Notes under the pieces: generated by a model
The model's input: the letters and a program-made list of their open reading frames with translations, nothing else
What the model was told of the DNA's origin: nothing
The model's database searches: none
Shown here: one piece after another, positions 19,362-58,443 of the stretch
Layout of the letters: every line of letters begins with the position of its first letter
Position numbering within the stretch: position 1 is the stretch's first letter
Origin: Bacteroidia bacterium
GTDB lineage: Bacteria; Bacteroidota; Bacteroidia; J057
Assembly: GCA_019695295.1 (NCBI GenBank)
Contig: JAIBAH010000008.1
Coordinates: 1 to 64,000, forward strand
Reading direction: 5' to 3'
DNA: 64,000 bases
Translations under genes and position numbers: made by a program

Positions 19362-22300
19362 TTATTCTTTGATTATTTTTCCGCTGTAGGTTTTCTGCCC
19401 GTCAGTCAGTTTATAGAAATAAATCCCACTGATAAGGCTTGAAATATCCATCGTTCTGAGGGCATTTCCGGTTTCTTTTGTGTAATCCGTCAAAACCACC
19501 TGCCCGAGTTCGTTATACAGACGAAATATCAACTCACTTCCATTTAGCCCCTGAAGATTCAGCGTCAGACTTTTAGTGGCGGGATTGGGATAAAGTGAAT
19601 ATTGGAATCCAGTGGGGTAATTGGATATCTGAACTACGTGGGAGTAGGTATAGTGTCCGTCATTATCTACTTTTTTCAGTCGGTAGAAATTATTGCCGGT
19701 TAGCGGGAAATTATCTGCAAAGTGGTAAGATTCCAGATTTTCTGCAGGTACCCGCCCTATTTCAGCGAAAGAGTATAAATCTCCGGAACGCTGAAGTTCA
19801 TAGTGAGACAGGTTGGTTTCAGTCTTTACTTTCCACTTCAAAAGATTCATGCTTCCATGGTTTTCTCCGTTAAACTCCATCAACTCTACCGGTAAAGGCC
19901 CGGGCAGATTAATTCCGGAGCCGCCACCGCCACCGGAAAAGGAGGTAACCGCATAGTCTGCATAATACGCTCCGGTAATGGCATCTGTACTCAAAGACCA
20001 TGTAGTTGTAGTAGGCGCCCCCCCCGGAAGATAAATCTGAATCTGAGGAGTCGTTACCCCGGCATGATCAGCGGGCAGGCTCGGGTCTAACCCGGTAATC
20101 AGCTTATAGAACTCAAAGTTGCTTAATACGTGCCCTGTGGGGGTAGTTACGTCGTTTTCGTCAATGGTATTGAAGAAGAAACGGACTACATTTGAGCCGG
20201 AAGGGATTTGATTTGCGGGATGTACGAGCACATTCCATGTCCTGTGCATGACGTACCATCCGTCAGGATTCTGGACATAAGGAGCGGAAGGTGCAGTGAT
20301 AAATGTTCCGGTACCTGAGCCATATCCTGATAATACATCCAGCTTTACCGCCATCTCGGTAGCATTCGCCGGAGTTCCGCTCACAAGATTCACTCCCGGT
20401 GGAATAGAATAATCCGAAGCCATCAGCAATGTCTGACTTCCGGCCTGATAGAAGTAATTCATCCCGCTCACCGGATCAAAACAATAAGCATCTGCGTAAT
20501 ATGTCTGATTGGTTGCAAGCGGGGTTGGGGGATTGGGGATATGTGTCCATAGATTTCCCATTCCTACATTTACGGTAGAAGCATTGGAAACGCCGCTAAT
20601 ACATCCTCCGACGTTTTCGAAAGCATAGTACGTATTACTGGAGGTCGTATTAAAAGGGGTTCCGGTACCTACAGGAATTCCTGTACCGGTATTATTGGTG
20701 TACCAGTTAATTGTTCCGGTAACAGAATTTGTAACGGATAAAGTAGCACTATTACAATAATCAGTTTGAACCACATCCGGGGTAACCGGTTCAAGAACGG
20801 TTAAAGTAACCGGCTTATTCGTTACACAACCCGTTGCCACTTCGGTAATCTGAACATTATAGATAGTTGTAGAAGACGGAGGCGTAAGAACGGGGTCATG
20901 GCTAACAGTATTACTGATACCCGCAGCAGGAGACCATAGGTAGGTATGTGTGGCAAGTACACCGGAAACAAACCGCCAGCCCTCATTGATTGCAGTCCAT
21001 GTTGTGGAATTCCTTCCGGGTACAACTGTAGCCAGTGTCCCGTTACTGTTCTCCACTCCCATAGTCTGTCCTCCGGAGCCACCAATATCGGTAGCATGAA
21101 TTTCAATGATATTGGTTCCTTCGTAAAGTAAAATCTGAGCAGTAGCGTCAAGCAAGGCATTCACACCGCAGCAGGGGTTTATCATAGTATAATTCACTAC
21201 CAAAATCCGGTTGGGAGCAATGCCCGTAGTAAAATACTCAATACTTCCTCCGGCAGGGGGGTAGAGGTCATCCCAGTTGGCAGCGATGAGGTCATTGGGG
21301 TCTGAAACATTGGGCACAACCTGACCGGAACAGCAACCACTTCCGGATGCAGGATTGAAGGTAATGAACCCGTTGGAAGAGATATAAAAATTAGAATAGG
21401 TATTTCCGTAAAAGGTAAAATTAAAACCTACAGGTAAAGCACCACTCACCTGGTCATCCCCCAGAATAACGGGGGTTCCTGAGCCTGCAACCGGCGAAAA
21501 TGGAATAGACATTACAGAATACGGGCCATTTCCGTTATAGGATACTATTGAAACCGGGCTTGCATTCAACTGAACAGGAGTCGCACTTCCGCTACAAATC
21601 GAGTCAGGGGTTGCAATGGCAGTAGCGATATTACTTAATGTATTATCAGTATTGATTACAACGGTGGAAGACCCAGTACATCCTTCAGTGCTTGTAATGG
21701 TAACCGTATAAACTGTATCAATCAGGGCTGAGATAACCGGATTATAGATATTTACAGCACTCAAATTAGTTGAAGGGGACCATGAATAGGTGTAAGAAGT
21801 AGTCAGTGAAAAACGCCACCCTTCATTGGTAGCAGTCCACGTAGTGGAATTTCTTCCGGGTACCACCGTAGCCAACGTCCCGTTACTATTCTCAATTCCC
21901 ATTGTCTGCCCCCCGGATCCACCGATATCGGCAGCATGAATTTCAATAATATTGGTTCCTTCGTAAAGCAAAATCTGAGCAGTAGCGTCGAGTGCAGCAT
22001 TCACACCACAACAGGGGTTTATCATAATATAATTCACCACTAAAATCCGGTTGGGAGCAATACCCGTAGTAAAATACTCAATACTTCCTCCGGCCGGGGG
22101 GTAAAGGTCATCCCAATTGGCAGCGATGAGGTCATTGGGGTCAGAGGCATTGGGCAAAACCTGACCGGAACAGCAACCACTTCCGGATGCAGGGTTGAAA
22201 GTGATGAATCCGTTGGAAGAGATATAAAAATCAGAATAGGTATTTCCGTAAAATGTAAAATTAAACCCTATCGGTAAAACACCACTCACCTGGTCATCTC

Positions 22301-24128
22301 CCAGTGTAACAGTAGTACCCGAGCCTGCAATCGGGGCATACGGGATAGAAGTAACATCATATCCTGACGCTAAAGGGGTATTGGGAGAAGCCGTTAATTG
22401 TACCGGGCCGCCCCCAAGACACATCGCTGAAGGAGTAGAAACCGCTGCAGTCGCCAGAATAGTGGACTGGACTACTGTTGTCACATCTGTGGCTATACAC
22501 CCTCCACCGGGGGTTGTATAGGTAAGCGTATAGGTTTGAGGAAAAGAACCGGGGGTAGCAACAGGATTTGCGATATTGGTTGCACTCAGCCCATTTCCGG
22601 CCCACGAATAAGTCCCCCCGGAAGTCCCGTTTACTGTTGCGTTCAGTTGAATGGGTTTAGGTGCGCAAATAACTGAATCACTGGTAAATGCATTTACAGT
22701 TGTGGCACCCTGTATGATTTGTATCTCATCAGTAGCATTGCAGCCCGCGATATCATAACTTACGGTATAAGTACTGGGCACGCTTGTGGGGGTAACTACC
22801 GGGTTAGCGATATTACTGGCACTCAGCCCCTGTCCTGTCCATGCATAAATCCCTCCACTGGCGCCTACTATATTTGTATTTAATTGTACGGAGCTTCCAA
22901 GTGTACAAATTGCGGTATCGGTGGTAGTAATATCAATCCCTAAAACATAAATCACAATATTCATGCTGATAAGGCTTGGTATCGGACAATTTCCATCGGT
23001 AAAAGAAATCGAAAAAGAATTGGTACCAATAGATGCCGGCGTAGGTGTCCAGTTAAAAGTAAGTACTTTAGGATTGTTTCCCGTCCCGGTAAGTACTGAG
23101 CCCGGTATTGAGGTTACATTTGTCGAGGTATGAGTAATAATGGTAGCCGGATTAGGGTCAGAGGCTGTAACCTGAAATGACATCGGTGTTCCTACACAGG
23201 CAGAAAAAACATTTGCCTGGCCGGGAACAAGGGAAGCGCCTGATATACCGGAAAGGGGAGCGACTGTAGAAGAGCCATTGGAGGCGTTCAGGATGACCAT
23301 CTGAATATCTCTCATTACAGAACCAATCAGTACCCCTGCCCTGTATTCCTCTACCTTTACTGCCATTACTGCATTCTGAATCATGTTTGGCGTAAAAGTC
23401 ATCTGACCGGTTACGGGGTTGAACGGGAATGTACCGGTAGAGGTAGAAAGCGGATAAGCAGAGGAATAGGGAGCATTAAAAGTAACAGGAACCCCCGCAT
23501 TATCGAAAGGACTAACCAAAGAATACACCAGTACATCTCCGTCTATTTCTACAGTTGCATGTGAATAGGTTTGTGCCTGATTCATTCCAAAATAAGGTAC
23601 GGGTTTCGTAGTAAAGTCCGGAGAACTATTCCCAGCAACTGTCAGATTATTCAGCGTTGCCTCCAGATAAATTCCGGCAAACGAAGGATTAGTAATGGTC
23701 GTTATCGCTCCATTACGACAGCAGTCATACCACGAAAAGACCCAATCGGAACAGGCCATTGGCAGAGTGGTCACGGATGAATAAACATATTCCTGTACTC
23801 CTGGCAAAGAAGCACTGCCTGTACCACAGGTTGTATTGACTATCTGAGCCGGACAAATTGCTGATACCTCAATCGGATAACCCGGCTCCAGGTTTACCAC
23901 AAGCGAATAGGACTGCACGCAGGAAGCGGATGAAACCGAAACAGAAGCAAACGCCGAGGGCGTAATCCCTGAGCAGTCCCGGTATTCGGTAAGCTTAATC
24001 CGGTATTGATTCCCGCCCAAATGCTGATAAGTTAAATCTCCTCCCATCACATGAGAGCCTAAAACAAAGTTAACTCCAGATAAAGATAATAATAAGAACA
24101 AGATACACAAACGTAAAGAATATGTCAT
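19362..24128 (-). CDS. Large secreted T9SS cargo protein with duplicated module
   Basis: A 1588-residue surface or secreted protein. A signal peptide (1-24) leads into an N-terminal domain beginning SHVMGGDLTYQHLGGNQYRIKLTEYRDC in two pieces, a start typical of large Bacteroidota adhesin-like proteins. Several short Ig/PKD-like strands follow (SGGIYAWTGQGLSA, SGGTYSWAGNGLSA). Two near-identical ~183-residue modules (about 590-771 and 870-1051) contain FYISSNGFITFNP, GCCSG and NPCCGVN and look like nidogen-type beta sandwiches. The last ~85 residues (from YPNPATKSL to YSGKIIKE) form the T9SS sorting domain that directs export through the outer membrane and cleavage. Composition is Thr/Ser/Asn/Gly rich with many Cys. 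A TATCTTTG promoter element lies 45 bp upstream and a terminator follows. Function beyond the cell surface is unknown. Confidence 0.9.
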   Translation of the reverse strand: MTYSLRLCILFLLLSLSGVNFVLGSHVMGGDLTYQHLGGNQYRIKLTEYRDCSGITPSAFASVSVSSASCVQSYSLVVNLEPGYPIEVSAICPAQIVNTTCGTGSASLPGVQEYVYSSVTTLPMACSDWVFSWYDCCRNGAITTITNPSFAGIYLEATLNNLTVAGNSSPDFTTKPVPYFGMNQAQTYSHATVEIDGDVLVYSLVSPFDNAGVPVTFNAPYSSAYPLSTSTGTFPFNPVTGQMTFTPNMIQNAVMAVKVEEYRAGVLIGSVMRDIQMVILNASNGSSTVAPLSGISGASLVPGQANVFSACVGTPMSFQVTASDPNPATIITHTSTNVTSIPGSVLTGTGNNPKVLTFNWTPTPASIGTNSFSISFTDGNCPIPSLISMNIVIYVLGIDITTTDTAICTLGSSVQLNTNIVGASGGIYAWTGQGLSASNIANPVVTPTSVPSTYTVSYDIAGCNATDEIQIIQGATTVNAFTSDSVICAPKPIQLNATVNGTSGGTYSWAGNGLSATNIANPVATPGSFPQTYTLTYTTPGGGCIATDVTTVVQSTILATAAVSTPSAMCLGGGPVQLTASPNTPLASGYDVTSIPYAPIAGSGTTVTLGDDQVSGVLPIGFNFTFYGNTYSDFYISSNGFITFNPASGSGCCSGQVLPNASDPNDLIAANWDDLYPPAGGSIEYFTTGIAPNRILVVNYIMINPCCGVNAALDATAQILLYEGTNIIEIHAADIGGSGGQTMGIENSNGTLATVVPGRNSTTWTATNEGWRFSLTTSYTYSWSPSTNLSAVNIYNPVISALIDTVYTVTITSTEGCTGSSTVVINTDNTLSNIATAIATPDSICSGSATPVQLNASPVSIVSYNGNGPYSVMSIPFSPVAGSGTPVILGDDQVSGALPVGFNFTFYGNTYSNFYISSNGFITFNPASGSGCCSGQVVPNVSDPNDLIAANWDDLYPPAGGSIEYFTTGIAPNRILVVNYTMINPCCGVNALLDATAQILLYEGTNIIEIHATDIGGSGGQTMGVENSNGTLATVVPGRNSTTWTAINEGWRFVSGVLATHTYLWSPAAGISNTVSHDPVLTPPSSTTIYNVQITEVATGCVTNKPVTLTVLEPVTPDVVQTDYCNSATLSVTNSVTGTINWYTNNTGTGIPVGTGTPFNTTSSNTYYAFENVGGCISGVSNASTVNVGMGNLWTHIPNPPTPLATNQTYYADAYCFDPVSGMNYFYQAGSQTLLMASDYSIPPGVNLVSGTPANATEMAVKLDVLSGYGSGTGTFITAPSAPYVQNPDGWYVMHRTWNVLVHPANQIPSGSNVVRFFFNTIDENDVTTPTGHVLSNFEFYKLITGLDPSLPADHAGVTTPQIQIYLPGGAPTTTTWSLSTDAITGAYYADYAVTSFSGGGGGSGINLPGPLPVELMEFNGENHGSMNLLKWKVKTETNLSHYELQRSGDLYSFAEIGRVPAENLESYHFADNFPLTGNNFYRLKKVDNDGHYTYSHVVQISNYPTGFQYSLYPNPATKSLTLNLQGLNGSELIFRLYNELGQVVLTDYTKETGNALRTMDISSLISGIYFYKLTDGQKTYSGKIIKE
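20974..21520 (-). repeat. Internal DNA repeat, copy 1
   Basis: About 547 bp inside the large T9SS gene that recurs with a constant 840-bp offset at 21814-22360. Stretches of tens of bases are identical with scattered third-position changes, and the reading frame is kept. It encodes residues ~870-1051. Confidence 0.85.
21814..22360 (-). repeat. Internal DNA repeat, copy 2
   Basis: Partner of the repeat at 20974-21520, offset by exactly 840 bp (280 codons). It encodes residues ~590-771 of the same protein. The high nucleotide identity points to a fairly recent duplication or to gene conversion. Confidence 0.85.
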
Positions 24129-31520: not shown

Positions 31521-32417
31521 TTAAAAGTTTTTCTCCCATTTATTTTGAATATAGGTTCTGATTTCTTCAGAAACCCCATTCCAGCTATCTCCCAGAAAAT
31601 TCCCGTCCTCATCCTTTACTGGCGAAGCCCCGTTCACAGCCTGATACTTAAATTGCCTTCCGTTTTCAATCATATAAATTTTATTGGTGTAGGAAGTATT
31701 CTCTCCTTTACAACCGTTTTTGTATGCAAAAGAAACTTCAGCAGAATTGTCATTGTCTAAATCGGTAACAGAAATGCTGTTTTTCAGAAAATTACAATGC
31801 AATTCAAACTCACAGCGACTAACGAAATCATGGATTTTCCATACCTGAGCATAGTTTTCGTCTTCATTACTACTATTTCTGTAAAGATAGGCATACACTT
31901 CAGCGTCTTTCCCGTCGATATCTGAATCGTAGGCACCGGTTTCGGTAAAAAATAAAAGGAACTCACCGGATTTACTTTCCCATTTCGTTCCGTGAATTAT
32001 TTTTCCGGTATATTTTATGGACGCAGGGATTTTACTTTTGTCAAAAGAAAGAAAGTTAATCTTTCCGGGAGCTATGGCTTTGGCTTTTTTGGAGGAAGGC
32101 CTGGATTTGGCAACCGGTTTCTCTGTATTTTCACCACCATTTTCTGATGTATTTTTCACTTTTTTAATTTCAGAATTCCCGGACGGCTTTTCAACCGGAT
32201 TTTTTGCCCCGGCACTTTTCTTCTCCTCCTTCTTTTCTTTTTTAGCATCTGCCTCCGCAAGTGCTTTGGGTTCAACCATCAGTTCCTTCGACATTGGGAG
32301 AGCAGCAGTATCTGTAGCAACTACTGCATTTTGGGTTACCGGACTTTTCTGTTTCGCTCCACAACTCCATAATAGTAAAATCAGTATGTACAAAAAGGAA
32401 ATTTGAAGTAACTTCAT
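31521..32417 (-). CDS. Lipoprotein with Lys/Glu-rich linker (paralogue of next gene)
   Basis: A 298-residue lipoprotein: signal peptide with lipobox LWSC (Cys ~19), a low-complexity Lys/Glu/Ala/Pro linker of ~90 residues (about 45-115), then a folded domain of ~180 residues. The domain is homologous to the gene upstream: LSFDKSKIPASIKYTGKI, YAQVWKIHDFVSRC, and ISVTDLDNDNSAEVSFAYKNGCKG. The VTDLD.DN..EV segment is the best-conserved part. It resembles a Bacteroidota family that databases label M949_RS01915-type surface polysaccharide biosynthesis protein (memory, low certainty). The linker probably spans from the membrane to a partner or to the wall. Confidence 0.85.
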   Translation of the reverse strand: MKLLQISFLYILILLLWSCGAKQKSPVTQNAVVATDTAALPMSKELMVEPKALAEADAKKEKKEEKKSAGAKNPVEKPSGNSEIKKVKNTSENGGENTEKPVAKSRPSSKKAKAIAPGKINFLSFDKSKIPASIKYTGKIIHGTKWESKSGEFLLFFTETGAYDSDIDGKDAEVYAYLYRNSSNEDENYAQVWKIHDFVSRCEFELHCNFLKNSISVTDLDNDNSAEVSFAYKNGCKGENTSYTNKIYMIENGRQFKYQAVNGASPVKDEDGNFLGDSWNGVSEEIRTYIQNKWEKNF

Positions 32418-32487
32418 ATTATTTTAATTTTTTATATTTATTCAAAAAAACAAGGACCATTCATTTCTTCCCCTGAGTAAGAAGTGA

Positions 32488-33183
32488 TTAGAATTCCTTT
32501 TCAAATTTTTTCCACTGGGTTTCTGCATAAGTCAGGAGCTGAGGTGCAACCTGCTTCCAGGCATCGTCCTTCTTGTAGGAACCCTGTTCTTTTGCGCCTT
32601 CTATATCAATCGTAGTCGTACCTCTCAGGGCAAGCTTCACCGGGCCTTCATGCATAATCAGTTTTTGGGTAGAGGGACTCACATCACTCCGGCAGGCAAG
32701 TCTGTATATCAGCATGGATTCACCAGTATTGTTTCCATCAAGGTCGGTGACAGTCAGTGCACCGGGCACAAAATCACACTGAATATCCAAAGGACACTCT
32801 CTTACATAATCCTGAATTTTCCATAATTCTGTCCATGAATTTTCTTTTTTGATAAAACACGAAGCGTATAATTCGGCTTCCATATCCTGAGGCTCATCTT
32901 TATTGGTTTTGCCCGTGGGAAAAGGCTCTACAATACTGACAACCAATACGTTTTCTCCATTTTTATCTATCCAGCATGCTCCATCCGTTATTTTTCCCTT
33001 TACGGAAATTCCTGACGGAATCCTGGACTTATCAAAAGGCAGCACCTTAAGCCCGGCGCTTACGTCCTGCGTCTTTTCAACCGGAGGAGTATTCGGCTGA
33101 GTACTCTCTCCGGTTTGCTTTTCGTTACCGGAGCATCCCAAAAGGAAAAAAACCAAAATCAGGGGAGCCGCTATTTTTTTCAT
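32488..33183 (-). CDS. Lipoprotein, shorter paralogue of the downstream gene
   Basis: A 231-residue lipoprotein. The start was set at the ATG at 33183, giving a clean lipoprotein signal (KKIAAPLILVFFLLGC, Cys ~17); a frame reaching 33222 would add a Lys/Tyr-rich stretch in front. The folded domain contains LPFDKSRIPSGISVKGKI, LWKIQDYVRECPLDIQC, and LTVTDLDGNNTGESMLIYRLACRSDVS, matching the paralogue 70 bp downstream. It lacks the long charged linker of that protein. The RLACRSDVSP...KLIMHEG pattern recalls the M949_RS01915-type family (low certainty). Function unknown; outer membrane or periplasmic leaflet location is likely. Confidence 0.85.
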   Translation of the reverse strand: MKKIAAPLILVFFLLGCSGNEKQTGESTQPNTPPVEKTQDVSAGLKVLPFDKSRIPSGISVKGKITDGACWIDKNGENVLVVSIVEPFPTGKTNKDEPQDMEAELYASCFIKKENSWTELWKIQDYVRECPLDIQCDFVPGALTVTDLDGNNTGESMLIYRLACRSDVSPSTQKLIMHEGPVKLALRGTTTIDIEGAKEQGSYKKDDAWKQVAPQLLTYAETQWKKFEKEF

Positions 33184-33244
33184 ATTTTTTAATATTTTTT
33201 TATATTTATATTTTAATATCAAAGAAATTTAAATCGGTGGTTAA

Positions 33245-33747: not shown

Positions 33748-33786
33748 AAAAAAAACCGGTAAACTCCCTTAATGGGAATCTACCGG
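33748..33786 (-). terminator. Terminator of the LysM-caspase gene
   Basis: On the minus strand an outer 6-bp stem (CCGGTA/TACCGG) and an inner CCC/GGG stem with a small internal bulge, followed by eight T residues; 24 bp after the stop. Confidence 0.85.
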
Positions 33787-33810
33787 CAAATCTATTCAGT
33801 CAAAAAAAAT

Positions 33811-34965
33811 TTACTTTGCTGGTTCCGGTTTGTAAAAAATCACCGGTTTCTCACCCGGGTAGTTACGAATTCTTTTAGGGTGCTGGGTTTTTCTTTTTAA
33901 CATACCCGCCAGTTCAGGCATAAGTTTCAGCAGGTCAGAATAAACCCCCTCCAGTGAGCCGTCTTTGCAGCTTTTGTAATACTGATTGTTCATTATGATT
34001 TCCATTGCTCGAACAAAAACGGAGCCGTGTATTCTATCGCCTTCAAGTGCCTGCTCAGAACTGTCACATGCTGAAATCACGGATAGATTCAGTCTGTCAC
34101 TCAACCCTCTGTTCGCTAATGGCCAGCCAAATGTATTGGCGTTACAGACATCAAGCATTACTAAAATATTGCTTTCTTTGTTATCCTCCCGGTAAAAAGC
34201 AGAATACAAATTTTCGACGGAAATCGCACAATCCAGATGACTGTCAACGATTTCTTGCGACTGATTGAAATCTGAAGGACAAAGGAATGCCTTTCCATCA
34301 TACCCTACAGCAGAATGTCCGCCGAAGTAGATGAACAACTGATCCTGTGGTCTCATCATATCCCGGATTTTCTGGATAGAGTCCAGTACTTTTGCCTTTA
34401 CTACGTTTCCGCACAAAACAATAGATTTAACACTGTCATATACCACGCCCTGCTGACTCTCAATCAGATTGGCGATGCGTACTGCCGAGGAGTCTCCAAA
34501 TTTTAAACTATCAAGTCCTCCTACAGAATAAACCCGAATTCCAACTGCAAGAATATAAGTTATAGAAGGAGACTCCGTTCTTTGATTTTCATTAGCTGAG
34601 GGAGCAACGGCCAAAACGTTCGAAGCCTCAGTTACCAAAGCAACAGTTTTGTTATTCAATGTAAGTAATGATTTGGGAATCCTGATTTCAGTTTCAGGAT
34701 AGATTCTATAGGGGGGCTTAATATTATTAAACCTGTAAAAGGCCTCCTTATCGGCAATTTTGAAACTATCAGCAATTCCATACATAGTTTCTCCCTTTTT
34801 TACAATATGGATATAATAGTCCGCTTCTAAAACTGCCGGATTCCCCCTCTCTGCAGAAGTTACGGCAACAGATTTCCCGTTGGCCAGCAATTGAAATATA
34901 AAGTCCTGAGCATCTGTTAATTCAAAACACAAGCATACAATAGCAAAAAGTAAAATCTTTTTCAT
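33811..34965 (-). CDS. Secreted LysM-caspase (peptidase C14-like) protein
   Basis: A 384-residue secreted protein. A signal peptide (1-19, ending TDA) is followed by a LysM-type domain (~50-98: YIHIVKKGETMYGIADSFKI, IYPETEIRIPKSL), a short linker and a caspase-like domain (~135-370). The catalytic pair is visible: His in FIYFGGHSAVGYDG near residue 238 and Cys in VMLDVCNANTFG near 290. The start of the fold, YILAVGIRVYSVGGLDSLKFG, matches the first strand of peptidase C14 proteins. LysM suggests binding to peptidoglycan or chitin-like glycan, so the protease should act in the periplasm or at the surface. No death-domain or adaptor is adjacent. Target unknown. Confidence 0.85.
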   Translation of the reverse strand: MKKILLFAIVCLCFELTDAQDFIFQLLANGKSVAVTSAERGNPAVLEADYYIHIVKKGETMYGIADSFKIADKEAFYRFNNIKPPYRIYPETEIRIPKSLLTLNNKTVALVTEASNVLAVAPSANENQRTESPSITYILAVGIRVYSVGGLDSLKFGDSSAVRIANLIESQQGVVYDSVKSIVLCGNVVKAKVLDSIQKIRDMMRPQDQLFIYFGGHSAVGYDGKAFLCPSDFNQSQEIVDSHLDCAISVENLYSAFYREDNKESNILVMLDVCNANTFGWPLANRGLSDRLNLSVISACDSSEQALEGDRIHGSVFVRAMEIIMNNQYYKSCKDGSLEGVYSDLLKLMPELAGMLKRKTQHPKRIRNYPGEKPVIFYKPEPAK

Positions 34966-35531
34966 AACAATTTGGTTTCTAATAATTAAAGTAGTTTCAC
35001 AAAAAGTACATTAAATGTCTGAAAACTGTTCAGACAATATCAGTTGGAATTACAATACAATACGGCCGGTGGATGAAGTAATCCGGCACCTGGTCCCCCT
35101 TTAGCAAAATTAAAACAATGAGCAATAATTTTTTTATACCATAGGCTAACTATTTTTAAAAATTAAATTACAGAAAAAAAATGAACATTCTGCAAATAAA
35201 AAGTCAATTTAATACCCCTAAAAGACCTTGTTAAATTAAGTACGGGATACAGAAATAAATGTTACCTTTTACTTTCTCCATTCAGGCAAAGCGACCTCCA
35301 AAAGGCAACAGAATAAATACACAAAGTTATAATCTTATAACAATAAATATCTTCTCCATGAACAGTAATTAAACCAGAATATCTGTTCCATTTTGCAACA
35401 ATCGCCTTTTTTACAATCTGAATAGTAAAAAAAACTATAATACTATTTATATATATTTCGGTAATCGCATTAATTTAAATCAATAAAATAATATTCTCTG
35501 CTTATATGAAATTTACATGTTTGTGTAGTAC

Positions 35532-35570
35532 TTTTTTCCTCCCGCCGGCAATCACAGCGGGAGGAAAAAA
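35532..35570. repeat. 14-bp perfect palindrome of unknown role
   Basis: Arms 35532-35545 (T6 then CCTCCCGC) and 35557-35570 (GCGGGAGG then A6), loop 11 nt. The T and A runs are on the inner-promoter side, i.e. T first and A last, the reverse of a rho-independent terminator, on both strands. Confidence 0.7.
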
Positions 35571-35613
35571 ACGATAGGCATTCATAAATAAATACGGAAT
35601 TCATTTTCATTTT

Positions 35614-35692
35614 ACTTACAGAAAAACTACGTTCGTAGCGCCGGGCACATCAAAACTGACCAAATTAATTTTCACGATACTTACAGAAAAAA
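35614..35692 (+). repeat. Direct repeat ACTTACAGAAAAA
   Basis: A 13-bp direct repeat, copies at 35614-35626 and 35679-35691, 65 bp apart, each preceded by TTTTCA. The second lies directly against the -33 element of the promoter downstream, so a regulator site is possible. Confidence 0.5.
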
Positions 35693-35693
35693 G

Positions 35694-35724
35694 TTGGAGG
35701 ATGCAATAAAAAGCGGTATCTTTG
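35694..35724 (+). promoter_or_regulatory. Complete Bacteroidota-type promoter
   Basis: TTG at 35694-35696 and TATCTTTG at 35717-35724 with a 20-bp spacer, matching the -33/-7 promoter of this phylum. Expected transcript start ~35731, about 65 nt before the small gene. Confidence 0.75.
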
Positions 35725-35795
35725 ACGTTGATTAAAGCGGAGATTCCCATTCCGGGTATATTCCGGCTAAGTTTTCATCTTAATTTTTCTCATCA

Positions 35796-35993
35796 ATGGA
35801 AGGACTTACAAATCAGGAATTATTACAGAAACTACAGGAATATGAGGCAATTATAAGAGATCAGCAAGTGCTGATTCAGCAGTTGCTGGATTATAATAAA
35901 AAATTGACGGAAATTGCCGCTACTCAGAAGGAAACCATTACCTCCATGCGTCTCATGATGGGCGGCTCTATGAATCCCCCTCATAATCAGTAA
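35796..35993 (+). CDS. Small coiled-coil protein
   Basis: A 65-residue cytoplasmic protein with no family recognised. After MEGLTNQELLQ it runs as one continuous helix with Leu/Ile at heptad spacing (LLQKLQEYEAIIRDQQVLIQQLLDYNKKLTEIA, read as segments), then a Met-rich, Pro-containing tail (MRLMMGGSMNPPHNQ). Gln and Glu are frequent, as in a parallel dimeric or trimeric coil. A well-formed promoter 72 bp upstream and normal codon use support it as real. It could be a small adaptor or regulator; function unknown. Confidence 0.65.
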   Translation: MEGLTNQELLQKLQEYEAIIRDQQVLIQQLLDYNKKLTEIAATQKETITSMRLMMGGSMNPPHNQ

Positions 35994-36099: not shown

Positions 36100-36669
36100 A
36101 TGCAATGTAAATTGTGTGTGTGCCTTTTGCTTTTCCTGTTTCCGGCTTTGCTGAATGCGCAAAACAATCCGGTTACGGAAGACCTGCCCGAAAAACTGAA
36201 AACGCAATTAAAAAACAGTAGTACCCCGGCGCTGATTTACCGGAAAGAAGTCGTTGATCTTACCCAAAATCCGGTAAAAGTAGAAACTCAAACCTTTACG
36301 GCTGATACACTGAACCGGTTGATGCTCTCCGAAACAGACTATGCACTCGCTTATTTTGCAGGAAGCCCCAAATTAAAGCCTTATTTTGACGAGACCCGTG
36401 TCAATGATACGATACATTATAAAATAAAGACTGCGGAATACGAAAAAAGCCCGCTCAAAGTTCAGAAAATCCTCAGAAATCCTCAGAATAATATTATCTA
36501 CTGGGAAAGCCACTGTATTACCGGTAATTTTCTCTACAGGAAGGAGATAAATATTAAAGTCTATTTTGATTCCCGGGGAAAATACTCCCATCATTTTCTG
36601 AAAATCTACCTGAGAATGGAGGTAATCAATCAGATATTTCATACTTTGATTAGCGGAAGCCGAAAATAA
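36100..36669 (+). CDS. Secreted protein of unknown function
   Basis: A 189-residue protein with a signal peptide (1-20, CLLLFLFPALLNA then QNN). The mature part is mostly polar alpha/beta without Cys pairs apart from one Cys near 140 (ESHCITGNFLYRKE). No motif or family is recognised. The compact domain with strands at TALIYRKE, DYALAYFAG and INIKVYFDSRG could be a small binding or assembly domain. It stands alone between the coiled-coil gene and the convergent D/R/E-repeat gene. Confidence 0.75.
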   Translation: MQCKLCVCLLLFLFPALLNAQNNPVTEDLPEKLKTQLKNSSTPALIYRKEVVDLTQNPVKVETQTFTADTLNRLMLSETDYALAYFAGSPKLKPYFDETRVNDTIHYKIKTAEYEKSPLKVQKILRNPQNNIIYWESHCITGNFLYRKEINIKVYFDSRGKYSHHFLKIYLRMEVINQIFHTLISGSRK

Positions 36670-36732: not shown

Positions 36733-37062
36733 TCAACGTCTTCTGTCTCTGCGGTCTTCGCGGCGGTCTCTGACATCTTCTTTTCTGTCGATATAATCCT
36801 CTCTTCTGTCCCGGACATCTTCCTTTCTGTCCTTTATGTCTTCCAGTTTGTCGAGAGGGCCTCCGTTATGCTGAGCATCAATAATATCCTCCCGGCGATC
36901 CCGGACATCTTCCCTACGGTCTTTTCTGTCTTCTTTACGGTCCAGAACATCTTCCCGGTGGTCTCTGACATCTTCGGCACGGTCTCTTAACTGAGCGTTT
37001 GCAACAGGTGCTACACACATAAACAAAGCAAGAACGAATGAACTAATCAATCCTTTTTTCAT
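36733..37062 (-). CDS. Secreted Asp/Arg/Glu-repeat protein
   Basis: A 109-residue protein: signal peptide 1-23 (ending ANAQ) and then almost only charged residues in repeats of DRxEDxxD type, such as RDHREDVLDRKED and KEDVRDRRED (at least six copies), interrupted by a short AQHNGGPLDKLED stretch. The alternation of acidic and basic residues at i to i+4 spacing predicts a single stable alpha helix in the periplasm. Repeat units are not identical at the DNA level, so the sequence is old. No function is known; it may act as a spacer, ion or polymer binder. A terminator lies 35 bp downstream. Confidence 0.75.
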   Translation of the reverse strand: MKKGLISSFVLALFMCVAPVANAQLRDRAEDVRDHREDVLDRKEDRKDRREDVRDRREDIIDAQHNGGPLDKLEDIKDRKEDVRDRREDYIDRKEDVRDRREDRRDRRR

Positions 37063-52650: not shown

Positions 52651-55600
52651 TTACTCTTTAATAATTTTGAAGGTCACACCGGGTTTATCGGAGTAGATAT
52701 TTACGTGATAAATACCCGAAGCCCAAGTATGTGTATCCACCTGCACGGAATAGGGTCCATCCGTTACTCCTCTGAGTGTATTACTGAAAATTACCTGCCC
52801 GAGACTATTGGAAATCTGGATATCAGCCCATTTTACATTATAGAACTGACAATCAATTCTCAACATATCTGAAACCGGGTTTGGATAAGCCGTGGTGTAG
52901 ATTGGAATTTCCTTTTCATTCAGTCTTAACTGAACGGTATTACTATACTTAAAGGAGCCGTCAATATCCATCATTTTCAAACGATAAAAGACTACTTCCT
53001 CTGAAATACCTGTTACATTATAATCCGGGAACTGATACTCTTTTTTCTCAATCGAGTTACCCGCAGCATCCACTACCCCAATCTGACCAAAAGACATTCC
53101 TCTGTCCAGTGAGCGTTCAATGATAAAATGGCTACTGTTTACTTCGGTATTGGTAACCCACTGCAACCATCCGTCTTCGCCTACAAGAGACGCTTTGAAA
53201 GATAGCAACTCAATCGGGAAAGGAGGAGGAGGCAGGTATCCTGCGCTATTATTCAGGCTAAGCTGACCTGCTGCGAAAGGAGTTACAAAAGTAATCCGGC
53301 TGTTGGAAGGATCTACGTCGCTGTCAACTGCGTCATTTCCTCCATTCTGAGTGGTAAAGTTTCTGCCCGGCAGTTCCATAAACTCGAGAGAATAGGTTGT
53401 ATTAGGCGCAAGATTTTCGAAAGAATACTGACCGTCAAGGTAAGTATAATACGTTCTTAATCTTACATTGGAAGCATTATAGAGATTGATATATACTTTT
53501 CCGATAGTAGTATCCGGAGCACCAAACAAGCCATCCTGATTTATATCCGAGAAGGTAAGCCCGTTTACGGTAGCGGTTGGCTGGAACCCAATATCCGGAC
53601 CTGCTGTCTCAGAGAAGCAGCTTACCACTACGGTTCCTGCGTCTCCGGAAGGAGTAATATCGCTGTCTGAAGCGTCGGCTCCTACGTCCTGAAATGTATA
53701 TTCATGTCCGAGTGGTCTGTTTGTTGCACGTACCCTGTAGGTTCCGGGAGGAATATTTTTAAATAAATATTTACCATTTGCATCACTTACCGTATTGACA
53801 ACCGGGCTATTCGTTGCGTCATCAAAAAGACGAATGGTAAGCCCTGACATTGGTTTTTCGCCAGGATCCTGCTGTCCGTTAAAGGTTTGATCCACCCAAA
53901 CAAATCCTTCCAGCGAGCCTGAGCAGTATTCGATAAGACCCGCATCAATATCCAACTGTACTGTACCTTTATCTACTGTAAATACAGCCGTTCTTCCGGT
54001 AGAAGGCTCCACGTCGCTGTCATTGGCAGCAGGAGAACCTGAAATATTTTTGGTAGTAAAATAGGCTCCTTCCGGCAAGTCACTAAAGGAAATATAGTAA
54101 GTACCCGGTAAAACATTCATGAAGGCATAGCGGCCTTTTCCATCAGAAATACAAGACGACACTACCTGATTTACAGCGTTAAATAACTTCACAGTAACAC
54201 CACTCACCCCTGTTTCAGATACATCATATATCCCATTTTTATTTTGGTCAAACCATACAGAGTTTCCGATTGCAGCTCTTACGCTAAAGAAGCCGGCATC
54301 CTGATCTTCATTCACTGTGGGCGAAAGTACAATATTAAAAGTTTTACCATCATCCATATTGGGGTCACTGTTGGTTGCTACTGTAGCATTCAATGCTCTC
54401 TGTGAAGTAAAGCTGAAGCCATGAGGCAAGTTACTGAAACCCACTTTATAGGTACCTGCTGAAAGGTGAGGGAACAAATAAAATCCTTTCTCATCGGATT
54501 GCGTTGCGCTTAAAAGAGCTCCGGCATTGTCATAGAGGGTAACCGAGATTCCGGGAAGCGGCGGCTCAGAGGCATCCATGATTCCGTTTTTGTTTACATC
54601 CATCCACACATAATCCCCAATTACAGAGGTATTCACACTTGTATAGGTAAGCCCTGCATCTAAATTAATATTTGTTTCTCCTTCCAGCAATGAAAACAAT
54701 CCGGTTCTTCCTGTACCGGGATTAATATCACTGTCAATATCAGGAGCACCGGCGTTTTGAGCTACGAGAGCGAAGTTTAAGGGTACAGTAATACCCAGAC
54801 AATAATTTCCTGCAGGAATTTCATTAAAAATATATCTTCCTTTAATGTCAGTACGGGTAGCGGCTACGATTGTAACGCAATCCGAAGCATAAAGTGTAAC
54901 TGTCACTCCCTGAATACCCGGCTCATCTGCTTCCTGAATGGCATTACCATTTAAGTCATCCCATACTAAATCCCCGATTGTAGCCAGTCCTCCGGATTTC
55001 AGTTCTGTAATTAATCCACAGTCAATATCATATACTGAGGCTGCTGCTACAGCAAACAGATTGGTAATCCCTCCGCTACCGTCTGGAACATCACTGTCTG
55101 CTGAGGTTAGCCCCTGAAATGCAGTTGTAAAGCCTAACCCTTCAGGAAGATTTGCAAATTGCAGTTTATAGTTGCCGGGAGCTATATTTACAAAGATAAA
55201 AAAGCCGGTCGCATCTGTGGTAGTTTTATCAAGAACTGTATTACCAGCGTCTAAAAGATAGACAGAAACCCCCCGAACTCCCAGTTCTCCTATATCCTGC
55301 ATTCCGTTGGAATTGGTATCAAACCATACAAAGTCTCCTACTTTTGCTGTTCCAAGAATAGCAGTAGGAACCAGGCCAAGGTCAATATCCATTACCAAAT
55401 CTCCCCCTGAAAAAGAAATCGTATCGCTTTTTCCGGTAAGTACACCGAAATCTGAATCAACTCTGTCATTTGCTCCGGCATTGGCGGTAGCAATCGTATA
55501 TCCAACAGGAGTAGTGACCTGTACAAAATAGTAACCGGCAGGGATATTAGGGAAAATATAGTTTCCAAATCCGTCGGTTTTTGTAATCGCAATCTGATTG

Positions 55601-58443
55601 CCTTCAAAATCGTAAAGAGAGAGGGTTACCCCCGGTATTCCCGGCTCGTCGCTATCCTGCACTCCATCTGAATCCATATCTTTCCATACCCTGTCCCCAA
55701 TACTGACGAGCGTGTCAGCCGCTTTGTATATACCGGCATCAACAGACAATTCCTGTACTCCATTCACAAGCGCAATCACACCTGTATTGCCCGTAACTCC
55801 ACTGTAAATGATATCAGAGTCTTTATCATCAGTGGTGGCATTGGAAGGACTAAACATATGACCGGCCGGTAGCAAAATATTAATCTTGTAATTTCCTGCT
55901 GCTAATCCTGTAAATTTGTAGTTTCCAATTTTATCTGATGTAGTAGAGGAAATAATATTTCCGGAAACATCGGTAAGGTTGATATTGACATCTGACATCC
56001 CTTTTTCATTCAGGTCCTGAATTCCATTGGCATTAATATCATACCATATATAATTTCCAATTGCACCATTACTCTTAGGGGAATAATGAAGTCCCGCGTC
56101 TTTGTTGAGAATAGATTCATTGGCGTTCAGTGTAAACAAATCTGTGCGGCCTTTATTTACACCGGATATATTAATGTCGCTGTCCATATCTGGATTTCCT
56201 CCCTGTGATTTGGGAGAGAAGGTATAATCAATCGGTAATCCCACTTCCAGCTTGTAGATTCCGGCACTTAAGCCACTAAAAGTATATGAGCCATAAGCGT
56301 CGGTGATAGTTGAGCTGATAAAGTTATTTGCATTATTGAGTAATATAACCTTTACTCCTGCTATCCCAACCTCGCCTGCGTCCTGAATTCCATTATAGTT
56401 TTCATCCAGCCATACAGTATTGCCGATTGCTCCTGATGGAGCCGAAAAAGTTTCTATATCTCCTGTTCCGTTTGCATTACCGAAATATCCTGCTGTAGCA
56501 CTGCTGTTATAAAGCCTGTATCCGTGGAAAGCCGAAAGGAATTCGCTTGAAGGACGGTTGGAAAAATCCAGGTGGGCTCTTCTTCCCGTAGTATTGTTAA
56601 GCCAGATAATTCCGGAAGAGTTATCAGTAGAGGTAGGATTACTGGCTCCCATCATGATTTCATCAGAACCAGGTCTTAACGCCAAACCGCCTGAGGTAAT
56701 TTCGTCAAAGGTATGAGTCGCATTGGGATTACAAGGGTCAAAGGTATTGCGGTCTCCCCAGTAATACTCACCGCCCCCGGGACCTTCATTGTTTCCCTGC
56801 CCGGATATAAACAGACCCGGAGTAGTACAGTCCGGATACTGAGCCAGAGTTCCTCCTGCAGAAGCATTATTTTCCAGTGCATATTCATTGTTTATAATTC
56901 CGATTCTCAAAACATCTCCGGCGGTTACTCCTCTGAAAAGGGTATTATCTCCAAAAGTAGTATTATAATTATCAAATCCTGACTGATGACCATTTCTGTC
57001 CATAAGGGCTACAATCATACTGCCATCCATATCAAACTCGATATCCGAAAGAATTGGCTGCGGGTAAACAACCGCAGTATTCATTGCGTTGGTTGTAAAA
57101 GTACTTGCCCACGGCATCCATCTTGCATTATTGGTCATTAAAGGCGGAACGCCTCCGGCATTACCCCGGTTGTAATCCAGACGGAAAGAATAAACCACTG
57201 AAAAACTGGTACTGTTTAACTCCATAATGGTAGCGTAAAGATCGGCCTGATTCTGAGAAGTCTCTGCAGAACACACTACCCCGATATATACTTTTCCATT
57301 ATAACATTTTACTGCCCAGGGACGGAAATTGTTTCCGGAACAGCCCGGATTAGGAACTTTGATAGCTCTCACAAAAACAGGTGCACCGGAAGAGATATTA
57401 ATCTCAACGAGTTCCCTGTCAAAAAGGCTCATTACATACATTGTATTGCCATCTTCAGTGATATCCAGACCACCAAGAGACCGTTTTCCAACAGCATCAT
57501 AGGCATCACTGTCCCAGGATGGATTGGTTACAGCTGCCGGCAACTCGTTTACGTTATCTACCGGAGGTACAGTAGCAACCCTTCCGGAAGCCCCTACATT
57601 GCTTACCATTGTTTGTACATTGGCAAACAGTGTCGCTGATGGTGAGCCTGTATTTAAATCGATTTTATAGATACCCCCTAATCCACCAGGGCCAAAACCT
57701 GAATGCCTTTTATAAAATGCAGAAGTATAAAGCGCATTTTGTTTTTTGTTATAAGCTACCCCCCATACCGAGCCCATCTGACTTGCAGGAAGCGTATTGG
57801 AGGGAGGAGTAGTTTCGCCGGTATTGCTGGCATTAAACCATACAAACCCAGCCTGAGTACCGGAGGTGCCTCCCGCAAGCGGGTCTCCATTCACATATAA
57901 AGGAGTGGCCAACAGCTGAGTTACCGGATAATCCAGGGCTTTAGGGCCTACAGGAGGGGTATAATGAGCAGGCTTGTAGCCAGCGTCCAGTGTATTATTA
58001 TTTTTATTTACTCCTACTCCCAGGATATCAATCGTTATAACCGGCGTGTACCCATTTGCATCCGCATCACTATTCAGGTCGGTTGCAGGCGTTGCCGTTT
58101 GGTTGGTAAGATTATTAAATCCTGCTACTACCGGGAATCTCAGATAAAAAGTGCCGGATGAAAAGATAGAAAACCGGAAAAAACCCGGATTTCCCCCATT
58201 ATTAGCAGAAGTAGTGGTTGCCTGAAGCACATCGTCCCCGCCACCAAAAGCGCCATTGGGACCCACATTCCATAACTCAACGGTCACACCGTTGATTCCG
58301 TTTACGGGCAATTCATCCTGAATCCCATTTTCGTTCTCATCCTTCCAGATGTAGTTACCAATTGTCCCTACCTGAGCGAATAGCGACACCTTTGTCAAAA
58401 CAAAAACCAAGAAAATAAATAATTTTTGTCTGGAATCTATCAT
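52651..58443 (-). CDS. Giant SdrD-B repeat T9SS surface protein
   Basis: A 1930-residue secreted protein. A signal peptide (1-24) is followed by an SdrD-B-type domain (TIGNYIWKDENENGIQDE, ~27-150), then a ~500-residue region (about 165-665) with repeated strand patterns (YKIDLNTGSPSATLF, GNTMYVMSLFDRELVEINIS) that may be a beta-propeller, then nine more SdrD-B domains about 120 residues apart (starts near 671, 794, 914, 1034, 1156, 1274, 1393, 1513, 1628). Each has a DxNxNG calcium-type loop after IG(N/D)..W.D; the ninth and tenth overall are degenerate. A fibronectin-like strand region and a C-terminal T9SS sorting domain (from TAYPNPVSDML to TFKIIKE, ~1845-1930) end it. Probably a long rigid adhesin or surface stalk. 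Confidence 0.9.
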   Translation of the reverse strand: MIDSRQKLFIFLVFVLTKVSLFAQVGTIGNYIWKDENENGIQDELPVNGINGVTVELWNVGPNGAFGGGDDVLQATTTSANNGGNPGFFRFSIFSSGTFYLRFPVVAGFNNLTNQTATPATDLNSDADANGYTPVITIDILGVGVNKNNNTLDAGYKPAHYTPPVGPKALDYPVTQLLATPLYVNGDPLAGGTSGTQAGFVWFNASNTGETTPPSNTLPASQMGSVWGVAYNKKQNALYTSAFYKRHSGFGPGGLGGIYKIDLNTGSPSATLFANVQTMVSNVGASGRVATVPPVDNVNELPAAVTNPSWDSDAYDAVGKRSLGGLDITEDGNTMYVMSLFDRELVEINISSGAPVFVRAIKVPNPGCSGNNFRPWAVKCYNGKVYIGVVCSAETSQNQADLYATIMELNSTSFSVVYSFRLDYNRGNAGGVPPLMTNNARWMPWASTFTTNAMNTAVVYPQPILSDIEFDMDGSMIVALMDRNGHQSGFDNYNTTFGDNTLFRGVTAGDVLRIGIINNEYALENNASAGGTLAQYPDCTTPGLFISGQGNNEGPGGGEYYWGDRNTFDPCNPNATHTFDEITSGGLALRPGSDEIMMGASNPTSTDNSSGIIWLNNTTGRRAHLDFSNRPSSEFLSAFHGYRLYNSSATAGYFGNANGTGDIETFSAPSGAIGNTVWLDENYNGIQDAGEVGIAGVKVILLNNANNFISSTITDAYGSYTFSGLSAGIYKLEVGLPIDYTFSPKSQGGNPDMDSDINISGVNKGRTDLFTLNANESILNKDAGLHYSPKSNGAIGNYIWYDINANGIQDLNEKGMSDVNINLTDVSGNIISSTTSDKIGNYKFTGLAAGNYKINILLPAGHMFSPSNATTDDKDSDIIYSGVTGNTGVIALVNGVQELSVDAGIYKAADTLVSIGDRVWKDMDSDGVQDSDEPGIPGVTLSLYDFEGNQIAITKTDGFGNYIFPNIPAGYYFVQVTTPVGYTIATANAGANDRVDSDFGVLTGKSDTISFSGGDLVMDIDLGLVPTAILGTAKVGDFVWFDTNSNGMQDIGELGVRGVSVYLLDAGNTVLDKTTTDATGFFIFVNIAPGNYKLQFANLPEGLGFTTAFQGLTSADSDVPDGSGGITNLFAVAAASVYDIDCGLITELKSGGLATIGDLVWDDLNGNAIQEADEPGIQGVTVTLYASDCVTIVAATRTDIKGRYIFNEIPAGNYCLGITVPLNFALVAQNAGAPDIDSDINPGTGRTGLFSLLEGETNINLDAGLTYTSVNTSVIGDYVWMDVNKNGIMDASEPPLPGISVTLYDNAGALLSATQSDEKGFYLFPHLSAGTYKVGFSNLPHGFSFTSQRALNATVATNSDPNMDDGKTFNIVLSPTVNEDQDAGFFSVRAAIGNSVWFDQNKNGIYDVSETGVSGVTVKLFNAVNQVVSSCISDGKGRYAFMNVLPGTYYISFSDLPEGAYFTTKNISGSPAANDSDVEPSTGRTAVFTVDKGTVQLDIDAGLIEYCSGSLEGFVWVDQTFNGQQDPGEKPMSGLTIRLFDDATNSPVVNTVSDANGKYLFKNIPPGTYRVRATNRPLGHEYTFQDVGADASDSDITPSGDAGTVVVSCFSETAGPDIGFQPTATVNGLTFSDINQDGLFGAPDTTIGKVYINLYNASNVRLRTYYTYLDGQYSFENLAPNTTYSLEFMELPGRNFTTQNGGNDAVDSDVDPSNSRITFVTPFAAGQLSLNNSAGYLPPPPFPIELLSFKASLVGEDGWLQWVTNTEVNSSHFIIERSLDRGMSFGQIGVVDAAGNSIEKKEYQFPDYNVTGISEEVVFYRLKMMDIDGSFKYSNTVQLRLNEKEIPIYTTAYPNPVSDMLRIDCQFYNVKWADIQISNSLGQVIFSNTLRGVTDGPYSVQVDTHTWASGIYHVNIYSDKPGVTFKIIKE

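Follow-up and report, generated by a model that had tools for sequence, protein, structure and literature searches.

We describe a protein of an uncultured Bacteroidota bacterium in which a putative leader peptide, a LysM domain and a caspase domain, identified as such through its relatives and through structural models and divergent in sequence, are joined in one chain. The main new point is a change in its S1 pocket that, among 37 aligned caspase domains, is confined to proteins of this LysM-caspase architecture. The gene occupies positions 33811..34965 on the minus strand of the stretch of DNA analysed, 64,000 nucleotides in length and here termed the window. From its sequence and modelled fold we think it probable that the product is a protease tethered to the cell wall in the periplasm, an estimate that does not extend to its biological purpose.

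The ORF was confirmed and has homologues; it encodes 384 residues, begins with ATG and ends with a stop codon at 33811-33813. Residues 1-19 (34909..34965, minus strand), read by eye, constitute a leader, MKKILLFAIVCLCFELTDA, followed by Gln-Asp, with cleavage predicted between Ala19 and Gln20; no lipobox was seen in it by eye. In the four LysM-caspase relatives a hydrophobic stretch is likewise visible by eye, followed by Ala or Ser and then Gln, in two of the four after a longer N-terminus. The LysM domain (residues 53-97; 34675..34809, minus strand) belongs to its family by the Pfam model PF01476 (E 8.8e-8; score 32.4 bits, cut-off 20.9). A linker leads from it to a caspase-fold domain that starts near residue 134 and runs to the C-terminus (about residues 134-383; 33817..34566, minus strand), with limits drawn from a profile match (NF047832, residues 139-345), fold matches (residues 132-383) and a model of the domain. 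A sequence-only reading of this DNA had proposed a signal peptide, a LysM domain and a caspase-like protease in one chain, with an intact His (in GGHS) and an intact Cys (in DVCNA). Both proposals are borne out, and the two residues are His217 (codon at 34315..34317, minus strand) and Cys274 (codon at 34144..34146, minus strand).

The caspase domain has diverged far enough that the Pfam caspase model, PF00656, does not match the window protein directly. Its best curated profile match is NF047832 (caspase, EACC1-associated type), found weakly (E 6.1e-7) and at 29.1 bits far under the NCBIfam cut-off of 140, so that the protein is not a member of that family. Searched against PDB sequences it returned no caspase and LysM only (E 0.019); with a profile of the five LysM-caspases the E-value was 0.051 for yeast Metacaspase-1 and about 0.8 for TbMCA2, a metacaspase of known structure. 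Relatives from the same genus gave firmer matches: a same-genus protein is 31% identical over residues 129-368 (E 4.2e-32), and two paralogues from the same genome match with E-values of 1.3e-17 and 1.3e-9. Both paralogues pass PF00656 as well as PF01476, and of these two models L007, the nearest relative, passes PF01476 alone; homology to family C14 of clan CD is thus established by way of an intermediate, the paralogue matched at 1.3e-17 that itself passes PF00656. When the five LysM-caspases are aligned, His217, Asp272 and Cys274 are invariant, with the other four 20-27% identical to the window protein.

Structural models agree with this assignment. AlphaFold2 models built from two-row alignments were of low confidence, both for the full chain (mean pLDDT 46.4, pTM 0.53) and for residues 128-384 alone (mean pLDDT 60.1, pTM 0.69), with residues 327-384 under a pLDDT of 50 in both. 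Searched with Foldseek, the low-confidence full-chain model nevertheless placed fungal metacaspases at the top (7qp1, E 5.2e-7, probability 1.0; Yca1, 4f6p, 2.1e-6), followed by MALT1, caspases, GSU0716 and TbMCA2. Rescoring by VIA, which is a second look at the list returned by Foldseek and hence no independent search, gave the full-chain model a Z of 14.4 with AtMC4 (rmsd 3.3, 203 aligned) and of 14.1 with the bacterial GSU0716 (3.3, 186), and the domain model values of 14.4 (rmsd 3.5, 194 aligned) and 14.3 (3.7, 185). Among the matches listed (the best 50, Foldseek and VIA) all have the caspase fold, comprising caspases, metacaspases, paracaspases, legumains, the GPI transamidase subunit K and GSU0716; legumains score close behind the leading VIA matches of the domain model, and the models therefore do not separate metacaspase from legumain topology. 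To our knowledge no LysM domain occurs among the metacaspases of known structure or in GSU0716. In the full-chain model His217 lies near the end of a strand (residues 209-220) and Cys274 directly follows another (266-273), and the domain model places them likewise. In the available text of PMC4357240, a His/Cys dyad at the C-terminal ends of strands beta3 and beta4 is the rule for clan CD, an arrangement shared, with the fold, by Yca1, the C. glabrata metacaspase, AtMC4, TbMCA2 and Geobacter GSU0716. Both low-confidence models thus show the clan CD pattern, and a Cys displaced from the active-site position, the outcome that the sequence-only reading had named as its own refutation, was not found. 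Because near relatives, fold matches and dyad placement agree, we regard the domain as a caspase domain despite the Pfam miss.

To compare individual positions we used 37 aligned caspase domains from the loci collected, after 7 of 44 domain hits had been removed by hand: L033 (a duplicate of the protein L066), the pair L019 and L046 (a single protein), L055 (cut by a contig end), two pieces of the broken L065, and L032 (the weakest). Where the removed hits cover a position in question they carry Asp at 160, His-Gly and Asp-x-Cys, and the counts are not contradicted by them. The catalytic His and the catalytic Cys are each present in 35 of the 37 domains. Two proteins from related bacteria, L052 and L064, have neither dyad residue, with Arg/Phe and Leu/Ser at the dyad positions, and on these sequences are likely pseudoproteases. 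The residue two before the catalytic Cys (Asp272 in the window protein; 34150..34152, minus strand) is Asp in all 37; it stands where TbMCA2 has Asp211 in its S1 pocket, an equivalence anchored on the catalytic Cys213 of that enzyme (title of entry 4afr).

The first helix is different. At window-protein position 160 the residue is Asp in 34 of 37 domains, and the three exceptions are the window protein itself (Ser160; 34486..34488, minus strand), its sister in the same-genus genome G002 (Ser) and a paralogue on contig C10 of its own genome (Gly), so that every domain lacking the helix-1 Asp is a LysM-caspase; the paralogue on contig C199 retains this Asp. The alignment runs free of gaps from Leu154 to Ala161, on either side of this column, and is firm here for that reason. 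We take the column, from a reading of the motif and without structural superposition, to correspond to Asp95 of TbMCA2. According to the passages available from PMC4357240, the S1-pocket residues of TbMCA2 are Cys92, Asp95 (helix 1), Ser156 and Asp211, metacaspases prefer Arg or Lys, and gingipain R uses an Asp of helix 1 to hold the P1 Arg. In place of the acidic pocket of C14B type the window protein has Asp272 together with Ser160; with the helix-1 Asp replaced, we do not file it as an Arg/Lys-specific metacaspase, and the loss of one S1 acid makes such a specificity uncertain. Asp158, two residues before the altered column, could stand in for the missing acid (Asp occurs there in 10 of 37 domains). 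Gly157 of the window protein is where the pocket Cys of TbMCA2 would lie, and in other members changing this Cys lowers activity, as reported in the available text of PMC5756287. A second alteration lies at the active site: Gly follows the catalytic His in 33 of 37 domains, and the four exceptions, among them the window protein (Ser218), are all LysM-caspases, the G002 sister of the window protein being the one that keeps the Gly. Read from the alignment, the changes at His-Gly and at the helix-1 Asp could lower activity, and the branch of the window protein probably lacks a plain Arg/Lys preference or is less active; the pocket and His-Gly changes together predict an altered P1 preference or reduced activity.

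The same changes raise the question of whether the caspase domain still cuts at all, or has become a wall-bound module for binding or sensing. The loss of both the helix-1 S1 Asp and the Gly after the His would fit such a pseudoprotease, as would the long branch on which the window protein sits (2.32 changes per column in a tree of 33 domains), and the accessible part of PMC5756287 cautions that an intact dyad by itself is no proof of activity. We nonetheless consider this unlikely, since His and Cys are invariant in all five LysM-caspases despite the low identity of the others to the window protein, the Asp at Cys-2 is retained in all 37 domains, and decay, where it has taken place, looks as it does in L052 and L064, which lost both dyad residues.

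The location of the protein was judged from sorting signals. The window protein carries no match to the T9SS C-terminal sorting domain (PF18962/TIGR04183) in Pfam or NCBIfam and so does not classify as T9SS cargo. The T9SS route seems, from sequence, to be in use in the source genome, as the sorting domain is present on two other proteins of the same window (19362-24128, PF18962, 4.7e-13; 52651-58443, TIGR04183, 4.7e-14) and on a third, encoded some 5 kb away from the paralogue on contig C199. By known sorting rules a leader and a LysM domain without a T9SS tail indicate the periplasmic sacculus rather than the surface, and we infer that a sacculus-bound location is the better reading. The sequence-only reading had instead suggested that a secreted, glycan-anchored form could cleave surface or wall-associated proteins or act in competition, and the alternative considered here is export past the outer membrane for a role at the surface or against competitors. 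LysM domains in general could bind the peptidoglycan of another cell, which would suit that role; yet the protein has no T9SS tail or other delivery domain (Pfam, NCBIfam) and no lipobox by eye, cargo bearing the tail is encoded in the same window, the adjacent genes scanned include no immunity-like partner, and the LysM itself suggests binding to the sacculus. A role beyond the outer membrane accordingly appears improbable to us.

That reading had also stated that bacterial caspase-like proteins are mostly cytoplasmic, a generalisation that needs a caveat, as exported, wall-binding homologues are in print. The available text of PMC3501461 describes 46 single-domain caspase homologues with an N-terminal helix, maybe a signal peptide, and reports that 11 of 671 caspase homologues carry a putative peptidoglycan-binding domain; that of PMC3355149 describes a leader-caspase-YARHG protein of Bradyrhizobium. 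Like the window protein, these combine a caspase-type domain with a module proposed to bind the wall in a single chain, and their authors show or suggest that they are exported; the window protein differs in its N-terminal LysM module, in having escaped PF00656 and in its S1 change. A literature search, with most subscription papers outside its scope, turned up no LysM-caspase fusion. Exported wall-binding caspases with other binding domains are therefore already known, and the LysM form and the S1 change appear to be new. Closer to hand are leader-bearing caspases with repeats from the same bacterial family (of the L003/L068 type), found in the same genome, with a leader by eye and repeats that look beta-propeller-like by eye; they lack LysM and, unlike the window protein, keep both the helix-1 Asp and the His-Gly pair.

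LysM-caspases were found in two genomes of one genus. The source genome (G000; 223 contigs, 97.4% complete) has three leader-LysM-caspase genes, the window copy and those on contigs C10 and C199. G002, another species of the genus (86% complete), has two, one of them nearest to the window copy and the other 61% identical to the C199 copy. G001, also of this genus (93% complete), yielded none; its best match, L042, is a caspase ORF without the LysM stretch. With profile A1, no other match spanning both domains was obtained in 13 genomes of the family or in 22 of the order (these 13 included), and none elsewhere among 395 genomes of the class (scoring limited to 5 candidates in each genome, E <= 1e-25); a search of 395 genomes of the phylum with L007 by itself (E <= 1e-8) gave a match in 1 of 395, the own genome. 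Scans of genome contigs yielded 62 pattern matches and no relative with the window protein, and 44 matches including five relatives with A3, of which L069 alone matched over its full length and the others over the LysM part; the viral contigs scanned contained no relative. In these surveys a LysM-caspase was judged by how far the profile matches extended rather than by a scan of each ORF for the two domains, and the apparent absence elsewhere is provisional.

Phylogenetic trees of the caspase domains gave differing pictures. In a first tree (37 rows), in which row L049 contained its LysM part by mistake and row L017 was overlong, the LysM-caspases required two changes and formed one clade in 0% of 200 bootstrap trees. 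In a second tree (33 domains) all five form one clade (93/87, unstarred) within a fork (92/89, unstarred) that also holds the exported caspases with repeats. Since L049 and L017 were mended and the long-branched L064, L052, L001 and L022 dropped at the same time, the trees neither establish nor refute one common origin for the LysM-caspases.

The surroundings of the gene suggest that it is transcribed apart from what follows it. A predicted intrinsic terminator (33755..33787, minus strand) with a 14-pair stem, a 5-base loop and a T7 tail lies directly 3' of the coding sequence and has the longest stem of four terminator-like sites in the region (shuffled mean 2.1). It separates the caspase gene from genes downstream on the same strand that encode a TfoX N-domain protein and then two NF046077 proteins. 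The latter (31521-33222, minus strand; M949_RS01915 family surface polysaccharide biosynthesis protein) adjoin one another and look like a tandem duplication. On account of the terminator and of the identity of these neighbours, we rejected an operon or a cognate partner as likely. The neighbouring genes scanned include no apparent inhibitor or target, as the sequence-only reading had noted, and with the terminator right after the gene, substrate and regulator are probably encoded elsewhere.

Upstream, about 830 bases (34966-35795) hold no convincing gene, followed by a possible 65-residue coiled-coil-like ORF (35796-35993, plus strand) and a 189-residue exported ORF (36100-36669); in three of the four relatives, too, the next ORF taken on that side lies 619-856 bases away, the C10 copy being the exception. 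Beyond lies a gene (36733-37062, minus strand) for a 109-residue exported protein composed mostly of highly charged DRREDVRDRRED-like repeats, with no Pfam match over cut-off and no NCBIfam match. The Bacteroidota-type promoter motif TAnnTTTG occurs twice in the 1135 bases upstream of the LysM-caspase, neither time with a TTG spaced as is usual; matches of sigma-70 type do not exceed those in shuffles (7 against a mean of 9.4), and Rfam at gathering thresholds found nothing in the window.

Some of the relatives have regulatory neighbours. A Reg_prop/Y_Y_Y histidine kinase, a LuxR-type response regulator and the C10 LysM-caspase follow one another on the same strand (L074:6494-11536, plus strand), the caspase gene beginning 165 bases (174 to the first ATG) behind the regulator, and the C10 protein may be controlled by this pair. 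Another such kinase lies two genes from the copy on contig C306 of G002; among the ORFs listed around the window copy, viewed by eye and in a few cases scanned by profile, no such kinase or regulator was seen. The C199 and C306 genes both have near them a xerD-like tyrosine-recombinase gene, together with a gene for a small exported protein that looks similar by eye at the two loci and has no Pfam match.

A narrower version of a periplasmic role is that the protein acts on the envelope of its own cell as an effector of self-lysis or abortive infection. Known defence caspases work in the cytoplasm, together with a sensor linked to them; the window protein has a leader, and the terminator parts its gene from the next ones. 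A weak match to the PADLOC 'caspase' model (E 8.3e-5) points the other way, and in the available text of PMC3501461 the authors tie caspase homologues, extracellular ones too, to cell death. We hold this special case to be quite improbable.

The reading we prefer is therefore that of a cysteine endopeptidase of caspase fold (clan CD, C14-like) in the periplasm. The leader would direct Sec export, and leader peptidase would free the protein at Ala19-Gln20; the LysM domain, recognised by profile, would then hold it on the glycan strands of peptidoglycan. There the His217/Cys274 dyad, placed by sequence and by low-confidence models, would cut one or a few envelope proteins, and the loss of the helix-1 Asp seen in the alignment would relax or change the preference for Arg or Lys at P1. 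In favour of this reading are the LysM match above cut-off, the dyad in all five LysM-caspases, the fold matches, leaders in all five by eye, three paralogues in one genome, the terminator and the missing T9SS tail; against it are the weak models, the lack of a direct PF00656 match, the altered His-Gly and helix-1 positions and a location argued from sorting signals only. Its most likely use would be envelope proteolysis during stress, remodelling or self-lysis.

Bacterial caspase homologues are commonly assumed to cut after Arg or Lys and to be mostly intracellular. A wall-tethered set with up to three copies per genome and a changed pocket in one branch offers a compact test of both where such proteins act and what they cut. 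As a more speculative proposal, to which we give a limited chance, these would be genus-specific, sacculus-tethered periplasmic caspases, one branch of which has a remodelled S1 pocket and prefers at P1 a residue other than Arg/Lys and other than Asp, with envelope proteins of the producing cell as substrates. The window protein, judged from its sequence, may cleave proteins of the cell envelope at unusual positions; should it be active, it would represent a caspase of the periplasm whose anchor is defined, and the search for its substrates would be narrowed to the proteins of the envelope.
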